Assembly: GCF_003597395.2 (NCBI RefSeq)
Contig: NC_133773.1
Coordinates: 124,637,399-124,701,398, forward strand
From: Chelonoidis abingdonii
Lineage: Eukaryota; Chordata; Testudines; Testudinidae
Direction of reading: 5' to 3'
DNA: 64,000 bases
Below, piece after piece: positions 1,579-43,576 of the stretch (the stretch's first letter is position 1; each line of letters begins with the position of its first letter). Position numbers and translations under genes: made by a program. The notes below the pieces were generated by a model, which saw only the letters and a program-made list of their open reading frames with translations, made no database searches and was not told the origin of the DNA.

Positions 1579-2873
1579 CTAAATGCATGACCTTGTACTT
1601 TGCATTATTAAATTTAATCCCATTTCTAATACTCCAGTTTTTGAGGTCATGCAGATCTTCTTGTAGGATATTCTGGTCCTCCTCCATATTGACAATACCT
1701 CCCAATTTTGTGTCATCCACATTCCCACTTGTTGTGCCAAGGTCATTAATAAAGATGTTAAATAAGATTGGTCTGAAGACCGATCCCTGAAGAACTCCAC
1801 TACTAACTTCCTTCCAGCCTGACACGTCATCTTTCAGTATGACCTGTTGTTGTCTTCCCTTTAACCAGCAGTTTGTTATCCACCTTTAAATTCTTATATT
1901 AATCCCCATCTTCTCCATCTCAATTAATTTCCCATGTGGAATTATAGCAAATGCTTTACTGAAATCTAGGTAGGTTAGGTCTACTGCATTTCCTTCGTCT
2001 GAAAAATCAGTTATCTTCTCAAAGAGCAGGTTGGTCTGGCATGACCTACCTTTAGTAAAACTATGTTGCATTTTATCCCAATTACCATTTACCTCTATGT
2101 CCTTAACTACTTTATCTTGCAAAATTGTATTCAAGGTCTTGAAACAACTTGAGATCAAACTAACAGGCCTTTAGTTTGCCTGATCATTTTTTTTCCTTCT
2201 TTCTTAAAAATAGGTACTTGATTAGCAAGTTTCCAGTCATAGGGTACCAGCCCTGAGTTTAGGGAGTCATTAAAAATCCTTGCTATTGGGCTTGCAATAT
2301 CATGTGCCAGTTTCTTTAATATTCTTGGATGGAGATTATCAAAATGCCTTGATTTGGTCCCATTAATCTGTTTGAGATTGACTTCCTCCTTAGATGTGGT
2401 AATTTCTACTTCCATATCCTCATTTCCATTAGCCACCCTACTCCTTTGCTCCTCATTACTCTTATTAAAAACTGAGACAAAGTAGTGTTTTAGGTATTGG
2501 ACCAAGGTCATTAATCTCCACCCCATCTTCAATGCTTAGCAGTCCCACTTCTTTTCTTTTTATTTATGTAGCTATAGAACCTTTTACTATTGGTTTTAAT
2601 TTCTTTTGCAAGACCTAACTCTGCTTGGTTTTTGGCAGTTCTCACTCTTTCCCTATACTTTTTGACCTCCAAGAGAGAGTTTTCCTTGCTGATCCTCCCC
2701 ATCTTCAATTTCTTGAAGGCTTTCTGCTTTCTCTTAATTAACTGTTTAAGATTCTTGCTCATCCAGTGTCTGCAACCCTTCCTTATGAAATTTTTTCCCC
2801 TTGTTGGGATGTGGGCTTCTGATAGCTTCTGCATCTTTGACTTAAAGTAATTGCAAGCCTCCTCCACATTCAA
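1579..2873 (-). pseudogene. CR1 ORF2 reverse transcriptase remnant
   Basis: Broken frames on the minus strand give the linker and reverse-transcriptase core of CR1 ORF2 in order. 2529-2873 is the basic linker after the endonuclease. 2155-2532 holds the entry region (LHPRILKKLA, then VPYDWKLANQVPIFKK). 1886-2158 holds motif A as YLDFSKAFAIIPH, where the usual second Asp of SKAFD is Ala. 1490-1825 holds motif B (SGVLQGSVFRPILFNIFINDL) and motif C with the catalytic pair in VDDTKLGG. At least three frame changes separate these blocks, so no protein can be made. In life the enzyme would copy CR1 RNA at a nicked target site. Confidence 0.85.
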
Positions 2874-3000
2874 ATCCTGGAATTCTTCAGTTCAGTCCAC
2901 TTTCCCAACTAATTCCATTTTTTTTTAAGTTTGTCCTCTTGAAATCAAGGACCCTAGTTGCAGGCCTATTTTTATTTTATCCTTAAGTCCAGTATTCTGT

Positions 3001-4764
3001 TTCTGATGGTGGTCAATATCAGGTGATACAGAGGATGGTTCAAGAAGTCTTTCAATGGAATAGCTAGCTAATCGGCAAAGTTTTTTAGTATGTGGAAATT
3101 GAGCTGAAGCACATCTGAGCTAAGGGAAGGAATCTGCAGTCCTAACGTGCCATCTAACCCATGTCATCAGTTAATTCAGAGCACAAGAAGGGGATCAGTG
3201 GAGGCAGGTCATTGCATCTCTCCAAAGTGGGTTTTTGCCATTGTGGATTCAAACTGTGTATTAATGCAAATGCCACAGCCCAATATATCTGTTCCCCTTC
3301 ACTCCATGTCACAGTACACAGAGTCACTGCAGGGCTGTCCCTTTATATGTGCAGTTAAGGTAGAGAGTCTCTCTTCCCTACAGGACCATGGAAACATGGT
3401 ATTTCTGCTGCGTTTGGGCCTTATGTAGGCCCAAAACACAACCAGGAGTGATTCAGGCTCATGAGGTGATGTTGAAAAGCCAACATCTCTATTTTGAGAG
3501 GCTACCTTTTTAAGATGTTGAACTAGGTAATGCCAAATATATCAGACTAGGTTCTGTGTTAGTGTGGTGACTACATTGTTTTTATGCTTTGCCACCTGTT
3601 AAATGGATGTACCAAAAATATTATTTCTGTCTGATATGTGCTTTAGTCAGCTCAGTTTCTTACAGGAACACTTAAGCCCCTTAATCCTTCATGTCTGATT
3701 TTTGCTTTTTTTTGCCCCTCCCATTTTCAATTATCTTTAAATCTAGATGCTTGATCACCTTATACTCCAGCCTCGGTAAACAGCTGATTGATATGTGCCA
3801 TATGTTGTTTAACCTACTTGTGATATTGCTTTGTTTGAAATATTTCTGCTGCTTGTTTACTATTTTTTGTCACCTCTTTTCATTAGGTTATTTGGTTTCT
3901 CATCGATCCTACTCATCATTTGAAGCATTCTATTAAGGTCATGGTGTTATGTGGCTAATTGCTATTGTAAATAGGATCCAATACCTTTTTTTCCAATCTC
4001 CCAGAGTAGTCATTTTAGCTGCTTTACACATTCCCTCCTTAGGATCATTATTATCCAGAGCACAGTGATGACAGTTGGCAGACCTGGAGAAGATGTATCA
4101 CCAGGTGCTCATAATATTACCACATTTTATATCCCTCTAGCAATATAACCATTCATTCAATTTTCCATCTTCATTTTAGTTGATTCAAAGCTTTCGGGAT
4201 GTTGCTGCATTTCAGATCTCTTTTTGCCTGACATACTGCAGCACATTGCCATTTAGAGGGGTTTCCTCTCTTTATTCTTTAAAAATACCAATTGATTATC
4301 AAGGTAGCATTCTCTTCACATTTTCCTACAGTGAGCTACTATGGAAATATTGATTCAGAAACTGTGCTTGCATTCAATGAGCCTTTATTAGATTTGTTCT
4401 TCAGGGCTTTATATTCTCAATATACAGATGGTTTCACCTTTATGGTTCATCACTCTGCCTCCCTCTTAATCATACATGTACATTCTATACTGCTAGAAAA
4501 CCAGTAAATAGCTACTTACATTTATGTAATTATTAACATTATTGGATTAAAAGTGTGTGGCAGACATACAGAAGTTAGATAAAAACATCCTGTACTCTTG
4601 CTGGAAAATCACAATGCACCTCTACTTTATTTCTTAGAATACAGAATCCTAACACAATAACCCAAAAACAGAGAGTGAAAAAGCAGACTGCTCCATAAAA
4701 CAGGCACAATTCGACTCTACTTTGCTCTAGCTTGGCTTTCTGCAACCTGACTTCAGTGCTGAGT
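3001..4764. other. No recognised gene or repeat
   Basis: AT-rich sequence. The longest frames (93 aa at 3147, 81 aa at 3691, 71 aa at 4292) show no recognisable domain and no splice context. A short stretch near 2985-3040 resembles a CR1 tail but is too weak to call. Confidence 0.45.
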
Positions 4765-5520: not shown

Positions 5521-6181
5521 TAAAGCCAGCGTCCTGTGACACTTATAGACTAACAGAAGTTTGGAGCGTGAGCTTGGGGTGTAAACCTCTCTCAGCTGCG
5601 GTGTGGAATGTCCGGGCAGGTTATATATGCTAGCAAGCAACAGAGATACAGAGTTATTCATCAGGAGGAGAGGCCTGTTCAGCAATAAGGTGAAACAGGG
5701 AGGAAACTGTTGGTATGGCAGACTCACAGCTTTGTTTGTCGAAGCTTTGTGTCATTTACAATGAACTGAAGTCAGCGTTTCTCTTGAGGATCTGTCCTGA
5801 AGTTTTGCTTGCAGGATAGCCACCTAAAGGTCTCTATTGAGGCAGAGGTTAAGTGCCTCTCTCAGGTTTTGTATTGCCATTCCTGATATCTGATTTGTGC
5901 CATTTACCTTTCCGTGCTGTTCCGTTGGCGATGTACATGCAAGGGGCATTGCGCTATATAGCGTATATGACATGGTGACGTCAGGTGAATGAACAGTGAT
6001 GGTAGTTGATTGGTTAGGTCTCGTGAGGGTCACGGTGTAGATAGTGGGCAGAGTGGCATCGAGGTGTTGCATGGATTGGTTCTGAGTAGATTACTGTGGT
6101 ACAGTGTGCAGTTGCTGGTGAGATTAGTTCAGGTTGGCGAGTTGGTCTGGGGCCAGATTCGAGCCACCCAAGTGTGAAAAG
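5521..6181 (-). mobile_element. Penelope-like element, lineage A, nested fragment
   Basis: A minus-strand PLE piece inside the TIR element. Tail sequence at 5530-5570 (CTTATAGACTAACAGAAGTT) matches the PLE ends elsewhere in the window. The minus frame at 5824-6072 aligns with the GIY-YIG region of the 29463 copy: HLDATLPTIYT corresponds to a cysteine-rich stretch, and QISGMAIQNLREALNLCLNR follows the domain. The flanks TACGGGGA (5513-5520) and TACGGGTA (6182-6189) look like a target-site duplication. The ribozyme core near 5555-5605 is badly decayed. Confidence 0.6.
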
Positions 6182-13940: not shown

Positions 13941-13949
13941 CCTCCTTAT

Positions 13950-13987
13950 CTGAAGAAGTGGGATTTTTACCCACGAAAGCTTATGCC
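13950..13987 (+). ncRNA. Hammerhead ribozyme-like core
   Basis: The core reads CTGAAGA, then a 5-bp stem II (GTGGG/CCCAC), then GAAA, then AGCT, then T, then ATGC. AGCU is self-complementary, so stem III could form between two molecules. The predicted cut is after the T before ATGC. The upstream GCAT needed for stem I is missing because the insertion is truncated, so this copy should be inactive alone. Hammerhead motifs are known from Penelope-like elements. Confidence 0.6.
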
Positions 13988-14021
13988 CAAATAAATCTGT
14001 TAGTCTTTAAGTTGTCACCAG

Positions 14022-14274
14022 CAGGGCCGGCTCCAGGCACCAGCTCAGCAAGCAGGTGCTTGGGGCGGCCAAGGGGAAGGGGCGGCAAGTCGGGCTCTTC
14101 AGCGGCAATTCGGTGGCGGGTCCTTCGGTCCCTCTCAGGGGGAAGGACCTGCCACCGAATTGCCGCCAAAGAAGAAAGCGGCATGGTGGAGCTGCCGCCG
14201 ATTGCGATAACGCCTTTTTTTGTTTTTATTTTTTTTCGGCGCTTGGGGCGGCAAAAACCCTGGAGCCGGCCCTG
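14022..14274. mobile_element. hAT-type MITE, 253 bp
   Basis: TIRs CAGGGCCGGCTCCAGG and CTGGAGCCGGCCCTG, GC-rich interior with an inverted GGCAATTCGGTGGC motif. Flanks GTCACCAG (14014-14021) and GTCACTGG (14275-14282) agree at 6 of 8. The two differences are CA and TG at one original CpG, as expected from decay of each copy. No coding capacity. Confidence 0.85.
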
Positions 14275-14344
14275 GTCACTGGACTCTTCGTTGTTTTTCT
14301 GGATACAGACTAACATGGCTACCCCTTGATATCTGACCTCCTTA

Positions 14345-14924: not shown

Positions 14925-16650
14925 GTAGGACTGGAAGGGACTTCAACAGGTCATCTATACCTGTCCCCTGCTTTCAAGGCAGGACTAAGTAATAACTAAA
15001 CCATTCCTGACAGGTGTTTTTTCTAACTTGTTTTTAAAAACCTCCAATTACAGAGATTCCACAACATCCCTAGGGAATTTGTCCCAGTGCTTAACTACCC
15101 GGACAGTTAGGAAGTTTTTCCTAATGTCCAACATAAACCGCCCTTACTGCAATTTAAGCTTATTGCTTCTTCTCCTATCCTCAGAGGTTAAGGAGAACAA
15201 TTTTTCACCCTCCTCCTTGTAACTATATTTTATTTATTTGAAAACTGTTATATCCCCTCAGTCTTCTCTTCCCCAATCTGAAAAAAATTGGGTTTATTTA
15301 ATCTTTCCTCATATGTCCCATTTTCTAGACCTTGAATAATTTTTGTTGCTCTTCTCTGGAATTTCTCCAATTTGTCCACATCTTTCCTGAAATGTGGAGC
15401 CCAGAACTGAACACAGTACTCCAGCTGAGGCTTATCAGAACAGAATAAAGTGGAAGAACTACTTCTCGTGTCTTGCTTATAAGATTCCTGCAGATACATC
15501 CCAGAATGATGTTTGCTTTTTTTGCAACAGTATTACACTGACTCATATTTATCTTGTGATCCACTATGACCCCCCAAATCCCTTTCTGCAGTACTCCTTC
15601 CTAGGCAGTCATTTCCCATTTTGTATGGGTGCACCTGATTGTTCCTTCCTAAGTAGTGTACTTCACATTTGTCCATATTGAATTTCATCATATTTACTTC
15701 AGACCATTTCTCCAGTTTGTTCAGATGCTTGCAATTCCTCCCAATTTGGTATCATCCACAAACTTATAAGTGTACTGTCTATGTCATTATCTAAATCTTT
15801 TATGAAGATCTTGAGCAGAACTGGACCCAGGACCGATCCCTGCGGAACCCCATATGATATGCCCTTCCAGCTTGACTGTGAACCACTGATAATTACTCAC
15901 AGTTATGCAACCATCTTATAGTAGCTCCATCTAGGCTATATTTCCCTAGTTTGTTTACAAGAAAGTCATGCAAGACAGTATGAAAAGCCTTGCTAAAGTC
16001 AAGATATACCACATATACCTCTTCATCCATCCACGAGGCTTGTTACCCTGTCAAAGAAAGCTATTAGGTTGGTTTGACATGACTTATTCTTGACAAATCC
16101 ATGTTGACTGTTACTTATCACCTTATCCTCTCCTAGTATTTGGAAACTGATTGCTTGATTATTTGCTCCATTATCTGTCCAAGTACTGAAGTTAAGATGA
16201 CTGATCTGTGATTCCCCAGCTTGTCCTGACTCCCCTTTTTAGAGATTGGTACTATATTTGCTCTCTTCCAGTTCTTCGGAATCCGTTCTGTCTTCCATGA
16301 GTTTTCAAAGATAATCACTAATGGCTCAGATATCTCTTCAGACAGCTGCTTGAGTATTCTAGGATGTATTTCATCAGGCCCTGACAATCTGAAGATATCT
16401 AACTTGTCTATGTAATTTTTAACATGTTCTTTCCCTATTCTAGCCTCAAATCTAACACATTTTTACTGGTGTTCGCTATGTTAGACATCCAATCGCGACT
16501 AACCTTTCTGATGAAAATTGAAACAAAAAAGTCATTTAGCAGGTCTGCCATTTCCACATTTTCTGTTATTGTCTCCCCTCCTGCCCATTGAGTAAAGGGC
16601 TACCATGTCCTTGGTCCTTCTCTTGCTTTTAATGTATTTGTAGAATAATA
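14925..16650 (-). mobile_element. CR1 LINE, 5'-truncated
   Basis: Minus-strand CR1 of about 1.7 kb. The 3' end is at left (TCATAGAGATGTAGGACTGG near 14924) and reverse transcriptase is at right. Minus frames give the ORF2 C-terminus at 15248-15499 (EKFQRRATKIIQGLENGTYEE) and the start of the reverse transcriptase at 16133-16387 (DEIHPRILKQLSEEI, then IPKNWKRANIVPISKKGSQD). Catalytic motifs lie between in broken frames: GTSGCSGGDCC-type text at 15830 corresponds to motif B, and the position of motif C shows no open frame. Copy ends near 16650. Confidence 0.85.
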
Positions 16651-20345: not shown

Positions 20346-20494
20346 ATTACAGTTATGGTGACCCCCACTCAATTAGGACATGTTAGTTCTGCTGCCTTTT
20401 AGTAAGACAATAAGGATAACAACATTCATTACCCTTGTATCCAAGACTGGCTTCTGATCACCTAAGCAAAATAGGTGAGTCTATTCAAATACAG

Positions 20495-20637
20495 AGGGGT
20501 AGCTGTGTTAGTCTGGATTTGTAAAAAGTGACAACGAGTCCTGTGGCACCTTGTAAACTAACAGAAGTACTGGAGCATAATATTATGCTCCAGTACTTCT
20601 GTTAGTCTATAAGGTGCTACAGGACTCTTTGTCGCTT
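20495..20637. mobile_element. Palindromic Penelope-like insertion
   Basis: Two inverted copies of the PLE 3' end, flanked by a perfect 13-bp duplication TATTCAAATACAG (20482-20494 and 20638-20650). The left arm (minus sense) reaches the true terminus AGGGGTAGCTGTGTTAG. The right arm stops at CTCTTTGTCGCTTTA, about 35 bp short. The centre, 20557-20606, is a perfect 50-bp palindrome. Each arm begins at ATGCTCC, separated by AATATT. ATGC is the first base block after the predicted hammerhead cut. Confidence 0.8.
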
Positions 20638-20650
20638 TATTCAAATACAG

Positions 20651-27553: not shown

Positions 27554-27616
27554 CACAACAGCCACAAAAACAACAAGGAGTCTGGTGGCACCTTAATGAC
27601 TAACAGATTTATTTGG

Positions 27617-27657
27617 ACATAAGCTTTCATGTGTAAAAAACCCACTTCTTCAGATGC
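27617..27657 (-). ncRNA. Hammerhead ribozyme-like motif, left arm
   Basis: On the minus strand: GCAT, CTGAAGA, a weakened stem II (GTGGG against CACAT), GAAA, AGCT, T, ATGT. GCAT and ATGT can still form stem I with one wobble pair. Likely weak or inactive because stem II is damaged. Confidence 0.5.
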
Positions 27658-27748
27658 TTTGTCAAGTGAGACCTTAAAAACCTCTGAGGATAGAGACTCC
27701 ACCACCTCCCTAGGTAACCCATTCCAGTGCTTCATCACCCTCCTAGAT

Positions 27749-27789
27749 GCATCTGAAGAAGTGGGCTTTTTACCTACAAAAGCTTATGC
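27749..27789 (+). ncRNA. Hammerhead ribozyme-like motif, right arm
   Basis: GCAT, CTGAAGA, stem II GTGGG/CCTAC, then AAAA where GAAA is expected, AGCT, T, ATGC. Stem I (GCAT with ATGC) is intact. The GAAA to AAAA change and the CCTAC change fit CpG decay of CCCACGAAA. Loss of that G should abolish cleavage. Confidence 0.5.
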
Positions 27790-28039
27790 CCAAATAAATC
27801 TGTTAGTCTTTAAGGTGCCACCGGACTCCTTGTTGTTTTTGCGGATACAGACTAACACAGCTACCCGGTGATACTTCACAACAGCCAGACATTCCAACAC
27901 CTGGATGAATCCTTTCCAATTAAATTATGTGTTCACTGCTCCTCTCCAGTTCCTTATTACTGTTATTCATTTATACAGGGTTTAACATATGCTAGTTTGT
28001 TGGCAATACAAATAAAAAGTTCCTGCACCTAGAAATTTA

Positions 28040-29450: not shown

Positions 29451-29552
29451 ATTTTAACATTAAGTATCAGAGGGGTAGCCATGTTAGTCTGGATCTGTAA
29501 AAGCAGCAGAGAATCCTGTGGCACCTTATAGACTAACAGACGTTTTGGTGTT

Positions 29553-29600
29553 AGCATGATGTTTCGTTGCGTGTGAATACGCCACTTTGTCAGATTGCAA
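29553..29600 (-). ncRNA. Decayed hammerhead ribozyme-like motif
   Basis: Minus strand: TGCAAT, CTGACAA (expected CTGACGA, a CpG change), an enlarged stem II (GTGGCG..CACGC), GAAA, then CATC and ATGC. The AGCU stem III element has become ACAU. Probably inactive. Confidence 0.45.
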
Positions 29601-38628: not shown

Positions 38629-41600
38629 TATGTATGCATCCCAAGGTGCAGGCCTCTTGTATATTGTACTAAAGTTGGAAACAAAATAAGGCATTAGGGA
38701 ATGCTGCTTTTTAATTTTTGATGGATGGATCTTAATTTTTTTAAAACTGCTGGTGACAAAGGTAACACACCTGGTATGATCATATACCCAAGAGTGTAAT
38801 CTCAGTGTTCTCAGCTGGTCTTACCAATACCATCCTCTGATCACATGCATCATCAGAGAGAGAGAGAGAATAACTAACAGAGGAAGAAGAGGTAAAGTTT
38901 GATGCATAAGCTCTGTCTCATTAAGCCAGAAGGAAGGAAGAGAGTTTCCAGTGGAACCCACATTACCTAAACTTGCCTTCTAGATTCTAGGAGCTCGGGC
39001 CAGTGTAGGAAGGTTTGGGAGAAAAGTCACATACATTCATGTTTTACTGTGCATTATGGTGGGAACTAATAACAGTAATCACAGCCGGGCCTAAGCTTCC
39101 ACCCTAGAGTTGGGTATATAATGCAAGAAATGTCCATTACAGTTCATTGGAATGAGCTTTGACTGTATTTGCACCTCTTTTGTATTCACTTTCCCTGAGT
39201 AGCCTAGCCTAACGAGCCTACAGGCAGGAATGTTTGCCCAAAGGCCACATTTTAAGAGAGTATCACAGAATGTTCACAGAAAGCAAATTTAAAATGTGCC
39301 CTAGTGAGTATGAAGGCTAGAAATGAGATTTTAAAAATGACACTTATCAAGTCAGGGAGCTGCACTGCTAGGGAGTCAGGCGTGGGGAATTCTGCCAGGA
39401 GCCAGAACCTATGTGGAGACATGAGCCTCCACATAGATACCTTGGCTTCCTGTGTATCCTCTAGAATCTGTGTGGCTCCCAGCAGGTTTACTAGGTTTGA
39501 AAGTGAACTTCATGGCCTTTTAAATTAAATCCTAGGTTTCCTCCTCATCAGCTATGAAATGCTATGAGGGTGACCTTTGAAAGGCTTTACTAGGTGAGGA
39601 TATGATCTGGCCATATGCTAAGCATCTGAGAAAGAGTATGTGAACTAGATATTTCTGGAAGCCTGACAGGCTCAAGCTCATCTGAGTGGCCAGGCAGTAA
39701 CCACAAATGTTGTGTCTTTGTGACTGACAGGCTTGTCTCCTGAGTGCTCATAAAACGTACAGAGACCTCCAAGAAGATTGCTTCCAAGCATATGGGGACA
39801 CTGGAAAGACAGACCCAATCTTCAACAGTCCACATTCTGGAGAAGGTAAAGTGCCAGTACATTAACTAAGATACATTTACCTGAATGTTAAATAAGTTGT
39901 ACATTCTCATGGAGGGCCTTTTGAAAACACAAAGCTATAGACTTTCTTCATTACCATACATCCCAAGCTGATGATTGCTGTTATGAATCATCATTTGTGG
40001 AAGGTGTGTTTAACATCATTTATACCAGGTGTTATCCTGAGAGCTAGCCCAGGCATTGTGACACACAAAGTCCCTGCCCTAACAAGTTTACAATTTAAAT
40101 ACACTTCAGTGAGTAACACAGAATGCTGGGTGACCTTAAGGCCAAAGTAGTTCATGTACTTGGTGTGACTAGGAATTATGAGAAGGAGGAAACTGAGGGA
40201 GCCTGATTTACATTAATCAGAAGGCCACTCCAAGCTTATGGAGAGGTATAAAAATTCTACAGCATGCAAGCAACACAATTCAAAGTATCTAAATATAAAT
40301 TATAAAATAGTGTACACAATCTGATGGAATAATTATTTATGAAAACCATGTTGGTTCCTCCTGTCTACACTGTGTGGAATGCATGAATATTTGCACTAAA
40401 ATGCAAATCAATTCATCTGAGAGACTTCAGAATCCTGTATCTCCTTGCTTAATCTTTCTAAATACTCCTTTTTAATTAAAAATGTATTGTTTTACAATAA
40501 AAGCCACTGAGATTTAGGCTGAAGATTGTATTCCTAGTGCTCAGTGTCATGTTGATATACCACCAGAATGACATTGCAATATTAATATGGCATCAGCTTT
40601 CACAAACCCTGCCTGAAATTTAAAGTCCTATAAAGTTCATTCGTAGTACAGCAGTTCTTATTTTAAAATAAAAGCTGTTTCTTTTTGAAATGCCAAACTC
40701 AGGGAGCTGTTGTTTCAGGAATTACTTTGTCTTAGCTGCTGCTGTCTACTACACTAAAGAAAGATAATGCAGTATAGCACAGAATGTTACTTCAGGGCAA
40801 AGGGTCTTTTTAGGGTTTTAACACTTCATTTGAAGAAAGGAAAAGTAAAGTTATTTTTTGGGGGGGGGGCAGAGTGCTATACCTTTATTCACACTGAGTA
40901 GTAGCTTGTTCCACAAGTATCCTCACTGATTTCAATAAAACCTACTCATGGAATAAGGTATGATTCACCACGAGGAAGGATATAATTTTTTAAAAAATAC
41001 GTGACTCCTAAGTATAAACTCTTGTAACTTTTTACAGAAAATACACATTAAATTTATGCAAAATTATTCATATCATTCTAAAAAAAGAAACATATTTCTG
41101 CATGTCAGGTCTCTGTAGTTAATTAGGCATGTATAATTATTATTTTTTATTAATAACTAATACAATGTCTTGGAAATCCCAGCATCTTTTGAAGGAGCCT
41201 TTTCTGCATGTCTGAAAATGGATATCTAAATAGCCATAAACTGTGACTACTTTTCTCTTAAATGAGCTGTCATTTTATCTGTTGATATTGTACCCCAGAT
41301 TGCAGAAACCATCTTCATTCAGCTATTAACAAAACAAAAGTTATATCCCAATATAAAAACCTGATCCTGCAGTCTCACTTGGGCACACTCCTGTAGATTT
41401 CAACCAAGGGTAACTCCACCACCAAGAACATGCAGTACATCCAATTTAATAGCAACACGATGTTAATTTACATACAGTCCTTGAACGTAAACTAGAACTG
41501 ATCAGTGAGAGCTACCATTACATACTATAGGCCAGTGCTTGCATATCCCCTAATAGAGCAGTCAAGCGATGGGTGCTCAGGCTATGCTGCTTGTGTAGAG

Positions 41601-42946: not shown

Positions 42947-43071
42947 TGTCTGACGAAGTGGGTATTCACCCACGAAAGCTCATGCTACAAAATGTCTGTT
43001 AGTCTATAAGGTGCCACAGGATTCTTTGCTGCTTTTATAGATCCAGACTAACATGGCTACCCCTCTGATAC
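42947..43071 (+). mobile_element. Penelope-like element 3' end, 125 bp
   Basis: Flanked by a perfect 15-bp duplication CTGCTGTAGTATCAG (42932-42946 and 43072-43086). It contains a well-kept hammerhead core, TAGTCTATAAGGTGCCACAG and the terminus CATGGCTACCCCTCTGATAC. The 5' end is truncated three bases before the CUGANGA core. Confidence 0.85.
42950..42985 (+). ncRNA. Hammerhead ribozyme-like core, best preserved
   Basis: CTGACGA, six-pair stem II (GTGGGT/ACCCAC with loop ATTC), GAAA, self-complementary AGCT, C as the predicted cut site, then ATGC. All conserved core positions of a hammerhead are present. The GCAT stem I partner, present at 27749, was lost by truncation, so cleavage in cis is unlikely. 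Confidence 0.65.
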
Positions 43072-43396
43072 CTGCTGTAGTATCAGATATATCCTCCATG
43101 TGTAGATAGTTATAGATCATAACCCTCAAGCCACCTTCTACGTTTCTCTTCAATAAGCTATATTGATTGAGCTCCTTAAGTCTCTCAGAGTAAGATATGT
43201 TTTGCAGACCTCAAATCATTCTTGTAGTTCCTTTCTGAATCCTGTACAATTTTTCAGCATACTTTTTCTACAATTCTACAGCTACAATTTGTTTAGTCTT
43301 CAGTGATAAAAGTAATAGAATTTAATTTTTTCTCTTAAATGAGAAGTTTAAATTGCTCATTAAATTTTTCTCTTAAATGAGCTGTCATTTTATCTG

Positions 43397-43560
43397 CAAA
43401 AAGAACAGAAGTACTTGTGGCACCTTAGAGACTAACAAATGTATTTCAGCATGATCTTTCATGAAAGCTCATGCTGAAATACATTTGTTAGTCTCTAAGG
43501 TGCTACAAGTACTCCTGTTCTTTTTGCAGATACAGACTAACATGGCTGCTACTCTGAAAC
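43397..43560. mobile_element. Palindromic Penelope-like insertion
   Basis: Flanked by a perfect 15-bp duplication CTGTCATTTTATCTG (43382-43396 and 43561-43575). The right arm (plus) runs to the terminus CATGGCTGCTACTCTGAAAC. The left arm (minus) ends at CAAAAAGAACAG, lacking the last 35 bases or so. The arms meet at CTTTCATGAAAG, about nine bases upstream of the predicted ribozyme cut. The terminal bases differ from the 20495 and 42947 copies, so it is another subfamily. Confidence 0.8.
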
Positions 43561-43576
43561 CTGTCATTTTATCTGT

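Follow-up and report, generated by a model that had tools for sequence, protein, structure and literature searches.

Paired long and short outer ends in head-to-head insertions of a putative Penelope-like element in Chelonoidis abingdonii

The window analysed here is a 64,000-nt stretch of the genome of the turtle Chelonoidis abingdonii. At the focus of this study (20482-20650) it carries two copies of a putative Penelope-like element (PLE) joined head to head (Table 1). The junction is a perfect palindrome of 50 bp with 25-nt arms, longer than any other in the window (the runner-up reaches 11 nt); in each of 100 dinucleotide shuffles of the window the palindrome arm was at most 11 nt. Beyond the palindrome, imperfect pairing of the two arms continues out to 72 nt at 88%, and the arms are 90.9% identical to each other over 55 nt. 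Positions in the element are counted from the A of ATGC (+1), the first base after the ribozyme cut predicted in an earlier, sequence-only reading of this DNA. As that reading had described, the palindrome unites two PLE 3′ ends, and both arms begin at ATGCTCC with AATATT between them: on the right ATGCTCC starts at 20585, and its mirrored counterpart on the left ends at 20578. The outer ends are unequal, the left arm running to +84 with a 3′ tail of 31 nt that is absent from the right arm, which ends at +53. The 13-bp duplication TATTCAAATACAG encloses both arms, in keeping with the earlier claim of one insertion event, and is found nowhere else on the plus strand of the window.

Table 1. Coordinates of the PLE insertions and their parts in the window (TSD, target-site duplication).
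Feature	Position	Strand	Remark
Copy E, degenerate PLE fragment	5528..5585	-	
Single L-type copy split by an inserted element	13949..14336	+	possible TSD CCTCCTTA
Focus, left TSD TATTCAAATACAG	20482..20494	+	
Focus, long (L) arm of the PLE, outer end +84 relative to predicted cut	20495..20581	-	
Focus, 31-nt 3′ tail, left arm only	20495..20525	-	from end coordinates, +84 vs +53
Focus, perfect 50-bp palindrome, head-to-head junction	20557..20606	.	
Focus, AATATT centre	20579..20584	.	position of the element's AAGCTT, immediately 5′ of predicted cut
Focus, tailless short (S) arm of the PLE, outer end +53	20582..20637	+	
Focus, right TSD (TATTCAAATACAG)	20638..20650	+	
Third dimer (F/A), left TSD CACAACAGCCA	27554..27564	+	
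Third dimer, S arm (copy F), including ribozyme motif	27565..27657	-	
Third dimer, filler of about 90 nt between heads	27658..27747	.	matches 15034-15100 at 75% over 67 nt
Third dimer, L arm (copy A)	27748..27876	+	
Third dimer, right TSD (CACAACAGCCA)	27877..27887	+	
Copy B, single, L-type	29464..29595	-	no TSD found by eye
Copy C, single, L-type	42947..43071	+	flanked on each side by TSD CTGCTGTAGTATCAG; cut predicted between 42981 and 42982
Second dimer (D), left TSD TGTCATTTTATCTG	43383..43396	+	third occurrence of the word at 41268
Second dimer, S arm, outer end +56	43397..43461	-	
Second dimer, L arm, outer end +90 or +91	43462..43561	+	
Second dimer, right TSD (TGTCATTTTATCTG)	43562..43575	+	

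Turtles carry this repeat. A profile made from ten window pieces gives 11 matches at E < 1e-7 in the window, which may be read as seven insertions. The copies share a layout in which a head resembling a hammerhead (CUGA box, stem II, GAAA) is followed by a stretch running to about CTTTTT and then by an optional tail, CAGACTAACAYGGCTACCCCTCTGATAC. The core of the head, recognized from its motif, may be that of a hammerhead ribozyme. By eye it comprises CUGA..GAAA, stem II and GCAU/AUGC, with an extra A after the CUGANGA box and without an Rfam hammerhead match. Rfam at gathering score returns no matches across the window, and a lenient scan returns no match at all in copy C and, in copies A and F, four matches other than a hammerhead; a microRNA-family match in the latter copies spans the inverted pair F/A. 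We call the element Penelope-like from its architecture and from published descriptions of the tail and start sites, an assignment made on non-coding sequence, the copies being short non-coding fragments. As in PLEs of the Penelope/Poseidon type, its pLTR ends lie inverted and head to head within one TSD, and an optional 3′ tail of 30-40 bp accompanies two start sites, a short one (S, +43 to +58) and a long one (L, +82 to +98). A 20-letter pattern of the element has no match in genome_contigs and viral_contigs.

The predicted cut just before ATGC is reasonable. In copy A, GCAU before CUGA can, by eye, pair with AUGC after GAAAGCUU, and in copy F the same pairing would include one G-U pair. A cut after GCTC, with the hairpin as helix III, was considered and dropped because helix I from GCAU/AUGC needs the cut before ATGC and because PLE hammerheads are described, in the available text of PMC6155905, as usually minimal and without helix III; minimal hammerheads in PLEs appear also in that of PMC7229834. 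Had the cut been placed after GCTC, the focus arms would run still further past it. The copies at 42947 and 13949, and copies A and F, start immediately 5′ of the CUGA box, which would be the pattern left by frequent arrest of copying where the ribozyme motif has its 5′ edge.

Three insertions in the window are head to head: the focus, 43397-43561 (dimer D) and 27565-27876 (dimer F/A). Each has one arm with the tail and one without, the tailless arms ending at +53 to +56 and the tailed arms at +84 to +91. Among nine segments compared (one of which, IH, consists of pieces joined across an insert and is non-contiguous in the window), the nearest relative of each arm is its own partner in all three dimers. 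The centre of the D junction is the self-complementary CATG at 43460-43463, with the predicted cut 9 nt downstream. A 31-bp stretch ending in the left TSD of D (43366-43396) is repeated exactly at 41251-41281, about 2 kb away. This place was rejected as an empty site for D: of the 33 bp matched by the joined flanks (41251-41283), just 2 fall past the join, so that it is a local repeat of one D flank. The filler of the third dimer is presumably CR1-like. Lying within one TSD, it resembles the published capture of DNA between pLTRs. The single copy at 13949 is split by an insert (about 14019-14276) with inverted ends of CAGGGCCGGCTCC type and an imperfect 8-bp duplication, GTCACCAG/GTCACTGG, which we take to be hAT-like; the possible TSD of the copy itself has 8 bp, a word present five times in the window.

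The frequency of such dimers was estimated outside the window in two unselected pieces, from C1 (200 kb, 13,298 N) and C10 (50 kb, 512 N), at positions fixed before looking. C1 holds seven insertions, four of them head to head, and C10 holds two, one of them head to head (5/9 together). With the window, which was itself picked for the finding, dimers make up 8 of 16 PLE insertions, a count that takes in three copies whose decay precludes classification (E, C1 191 kb and C10 18.7 kb, the last by its appearance a lone short end). A TSD encloses seven of these eight dimers, six by script and that at C1 110 kb by eye (TTGGCCACA), and each of the seven pairs an S end with an L end. The eighth, at C1 97 kb, has indistinct arm ends and gave no TSD in a second pass; a 9-bp repeat from the first pass was rejected, as it lay in an implausible place and was absent on the second. 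Head-to-head insertion is not unusual in this genome.

A larger set of loci came from searches of the 2.26-Gb genome. The 143-bp focus query gave 80 matches, the best 40 of 3,679 candidate places with both strands at each; of the 39 places other than the window's own, 36 are head to head by strict anchors and three, without such anchors, were left out. A tail-neutral query shares 28 of its best 40 places with the focus query and adds 12, and there is no clear short-short dimer among the 40. In all, 51 selected loci were fetched, of which 49 are dimers by anchors (L047 and L083 have none) and 42 of these have a TSD score of at least 8, leaving seven without TSD. The loci of these queries, and of a third described below, were chosen by similarity to a dimer, and the focus query additionally favours tailed dimers. 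In a control for the TSDs, a score of 11 was reached by 0 of 107 mismatched flank pairs vs 18 of 37 real ones, and a score of 8 by 20 of 107 vs 31 of 37, so that some of the 42 TSDs may be due to chance. Score 8 together with one S and one L end occurs in 3 of 107 mismatched pairs. A head-neutral tail query found the long end at 97-100% identity in its best 40 places, singles and doubles being pooled for want of flanks.

At the selected loci, 39 of the 42 TSD dimers combine one S with one L end. The automatic rule makes exceptions of three: L021 is long-long by script, its second arm ending within the tail by eye; L037 has ends at +77 and +52 by script and a deletion-bearing long arm by eye; and L079 is short-short by script on a repeat inside the element, and is rearranged. 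The seven dimers without TSD, L074 included, have one long and one short arm each by eye. If the choice of ends were independent and of equal chance, at least 39 mixed dimers among 41 called would have P = 4e-10, a figure that ignores the selection of loci. A dimer of another subfamily (C1 125 kb), used as query, gave best 40 places at 94-100% identity. The opposite-strand match stops at position 144-167 of 196 in all 40, one of which is the query. Thus the second arm lacks the tail and there is no long-long pair in these 40 places, in a list that short-short dimers would score too low to enter.

Junctions were mapped in 40 of the 42 TSD dimers, those with an alignment cost of at most 6; two loci of AAGCTT type, L013 and L015, have no TSD and lie outside this set. 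Only 7 of the 40 are symmetric. A recurrent junction, GCATAAGCTTATGC, with AAGCTT at its centre, is exact in 5 of 36 dimers. The AATATT of the focus has the same length and place as AAGCTT, the element sequence 5′ of the cut in other copies, and the focus is therefore read as a member of this class with a changed centre; AATATT may instead have been present already in a source copy. Microhomology is in excess at these query-selected loci: the 31 clean junctions (31 of 36 kept for low cost and no insertion, and subject to the query bias discussed below) overlap by 2.39 nt on average vs 0.90 for random pairs, and none of 20,000 draws reaches the observed mean. Of the eight unselected dimers, the focus alone is joined at the cut; in the remaining seven the junction lies 9 nt (D) to about 127 nt upstream, partly by eye. 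In the dimer at C1 50059900-50060410 (L053/L054, C1 60 kb) the arms reach about 126 nt past the predicted cut on its upstream side and are separated by a spacer of 26 nt; the TSD is CTGCTCTTTCTAGT.

A dimer is probably the product of one insertion, with reverse transcription primed from each of the two target strands on uncleaved RNA and the resulting cDNA ends joined through microhomology. We infer an RNA template, left uncut and primed by both strands; the single TSD, the two fixed outer ends and the overlapping arms point to two primings on element RNA, one per target strand. The endonuclease of the element would make staggered cuts, later seen as the TSD, and each exposed 3′ end would prime reverse transcription on element RNA, one strand starting at the long site and the other at the short site about 40 nt upstream. 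Both cDNAs would enter the ribozyme motif or pass beyond it, the RNA being uncut there, and their 3′ ends would then join by microhomology into a head-to-head dimer. At the focus, both cDNAs would have ended at one and the same self-complementary site, a little upstream of where the cut is predicted.

The sequence-only reading had instead proposed a ribozyme-cut RNA end as template. Both cDNAs would then run off at the cut, gain a few untemplated bases and be joined at their ends. The focus junction, 0-6 nt from the predicted cut, fits such a course, as do 10 of 40 junctions in which one arm may start at +1 and one locus (L081) in which both arms come within 2 nt. When arm starts are mapped against the cut, as that reading had suggested, both arms start exactly at it in 0 of 40 junctions, and bases upstream of it are needed in at least one arm in 38 of 40. 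A bulge does exist at -5 to -1 (23 of 80 arms of this similarity-selected sample); it is not taken as a peak because the query's own junction sits there, and we attribute it to query bias, though we cannot prove this. Moreover, the centre of the focus matches AAGCTT in length and place, the junctions of D, of F/A and of all five unselected dimers from C1 and C10 are further upstream, and in a related system ribozyme-dead RNA inserts as before (PMC11167929). The cleaved end as template is thus unsupported, and we consider it improbable.

The earlier reading had also allowed that the enzyme copied two molecules or turned back on itself. The first part stands, as two templates or one copied twice. 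The second, in which one cDNA or antisense transcript would fold back at the head and copy itself, is an unlikely course, although the available text of PMC3846280 infers self-priming from palindromes at inverted junctions and, in the three dimers of the window, each arm is closest to its partner. It is disfavoured because the focus and D are palindromic to the very centre, with no room for a hairpin loop, and because the outer ends of the two arms are unlike; an arm made by copying back should not, as 39 of 42 dimers do, stop next to the TSD at another fixed start site. Most junctions are, in addition, asymmetric.

In twin priming of L1, both target ends prime and the insertion has a TSD, microhomology at the inner junction and non-overlapping halves. 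The turtle dimers would resemble 5′-inverted L1 insertions in all but the last respect: they copy one RNA segment twice, the same stretch up to about +50 being present in both arms, which makes twin priming on one RNA very unlikely here. Separate insertion of the two arms, or inverted duplication of an arm already inserted, would draw on the abundance of PLE fragments (16 insertions in the window plus 250 kb) but is scarcely credible, given a single TSD around both arms (score of at least 11 in 18/37 real vs 0/107 mismatched pairs) and partner arms that match each other best in the three window dimers.

The turtle dimers have parallels in known systems. In the rotifer Adineta vaga, the available text of PMC3846280 describes Penelope with head-to-head inverted pLTRs, junction palindromes, TSDs, a tail optionally on one pLTR and, in some cases, captured foreign DNA between the pLTRs; the mechanism proposed there is self-priming, with an antisense template. 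Inverted pLTRs and short 3′ extensions figure also in the available text of PMC8969392. The turtle insertions share inverted heads, palindromes, TSD, an optional one-sided tail (31 bp) and captured DNA. In contrast to the rotifer Penelope, they are short non-coding copies with mostly asymmetric microhomology junctions, and a near-exclusive S/L pairing has been counted. The protein of the Anolis carolinensis Poseidon PLE (PAc) cuts and extends both strands, has two nearby reverse transcription start sites and inserts ribozyme-dead RNA as before (PMC11167929). The turtle dimers would agree with it in adjacent start sites separated by the tail, both-strand cleavage and extension and a dispensable ribozyme activity. 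Unlike them, the PAc work was done in vitro, the two strands were alike in start site and the main text is without head-to-head products (PMC11167929). As the strands do not differ in start site in vitro, the near-exclusive genomic pairing is unexplained by that work.

Architecture (rotifer Penelope), two start sites and both-strand extension (Anolis, in vitro) are thus known already, and near-exclusive pairing is unstated in the available text of those sources. Nor is the one-long-one-short rule stated in titles or abstracts among the literature matches listed, a set that mostly leaves out subscription papers. The two-sided insertion may be ordered and asymmetric, the target strands being assigned different RNA start sites, one long and one short, which would give nearly all dimers one of each; we hold this to be evenly balanced. 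If true, the ordered pairing would indicate a polar two-template complex, which to our knowledge is unlike that of any known retrotransposon. A bolder addition would be that the recurrent AAGCTT/AGCT junction reflects two RNAs paired via the self-complementary helix III of the ribozyme, holding both templates together.

The rule is directly testable against purified enzyme and bears on how Penelope-like elements complete insertion. The record of dimers, as far as it was analysed here, disfavours a ribozyme-cut template and snap-back and favours priming by both strands. First-look searches gave 2,580 to 3,679 candidate places, 40 being scored per search, so that PLE insertion has probably left an extensive natural record in this genome. 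Copies of the C-type subfamily occur at 97-100% identity and dimers at 94-99%, which suggests fairly recent activity.
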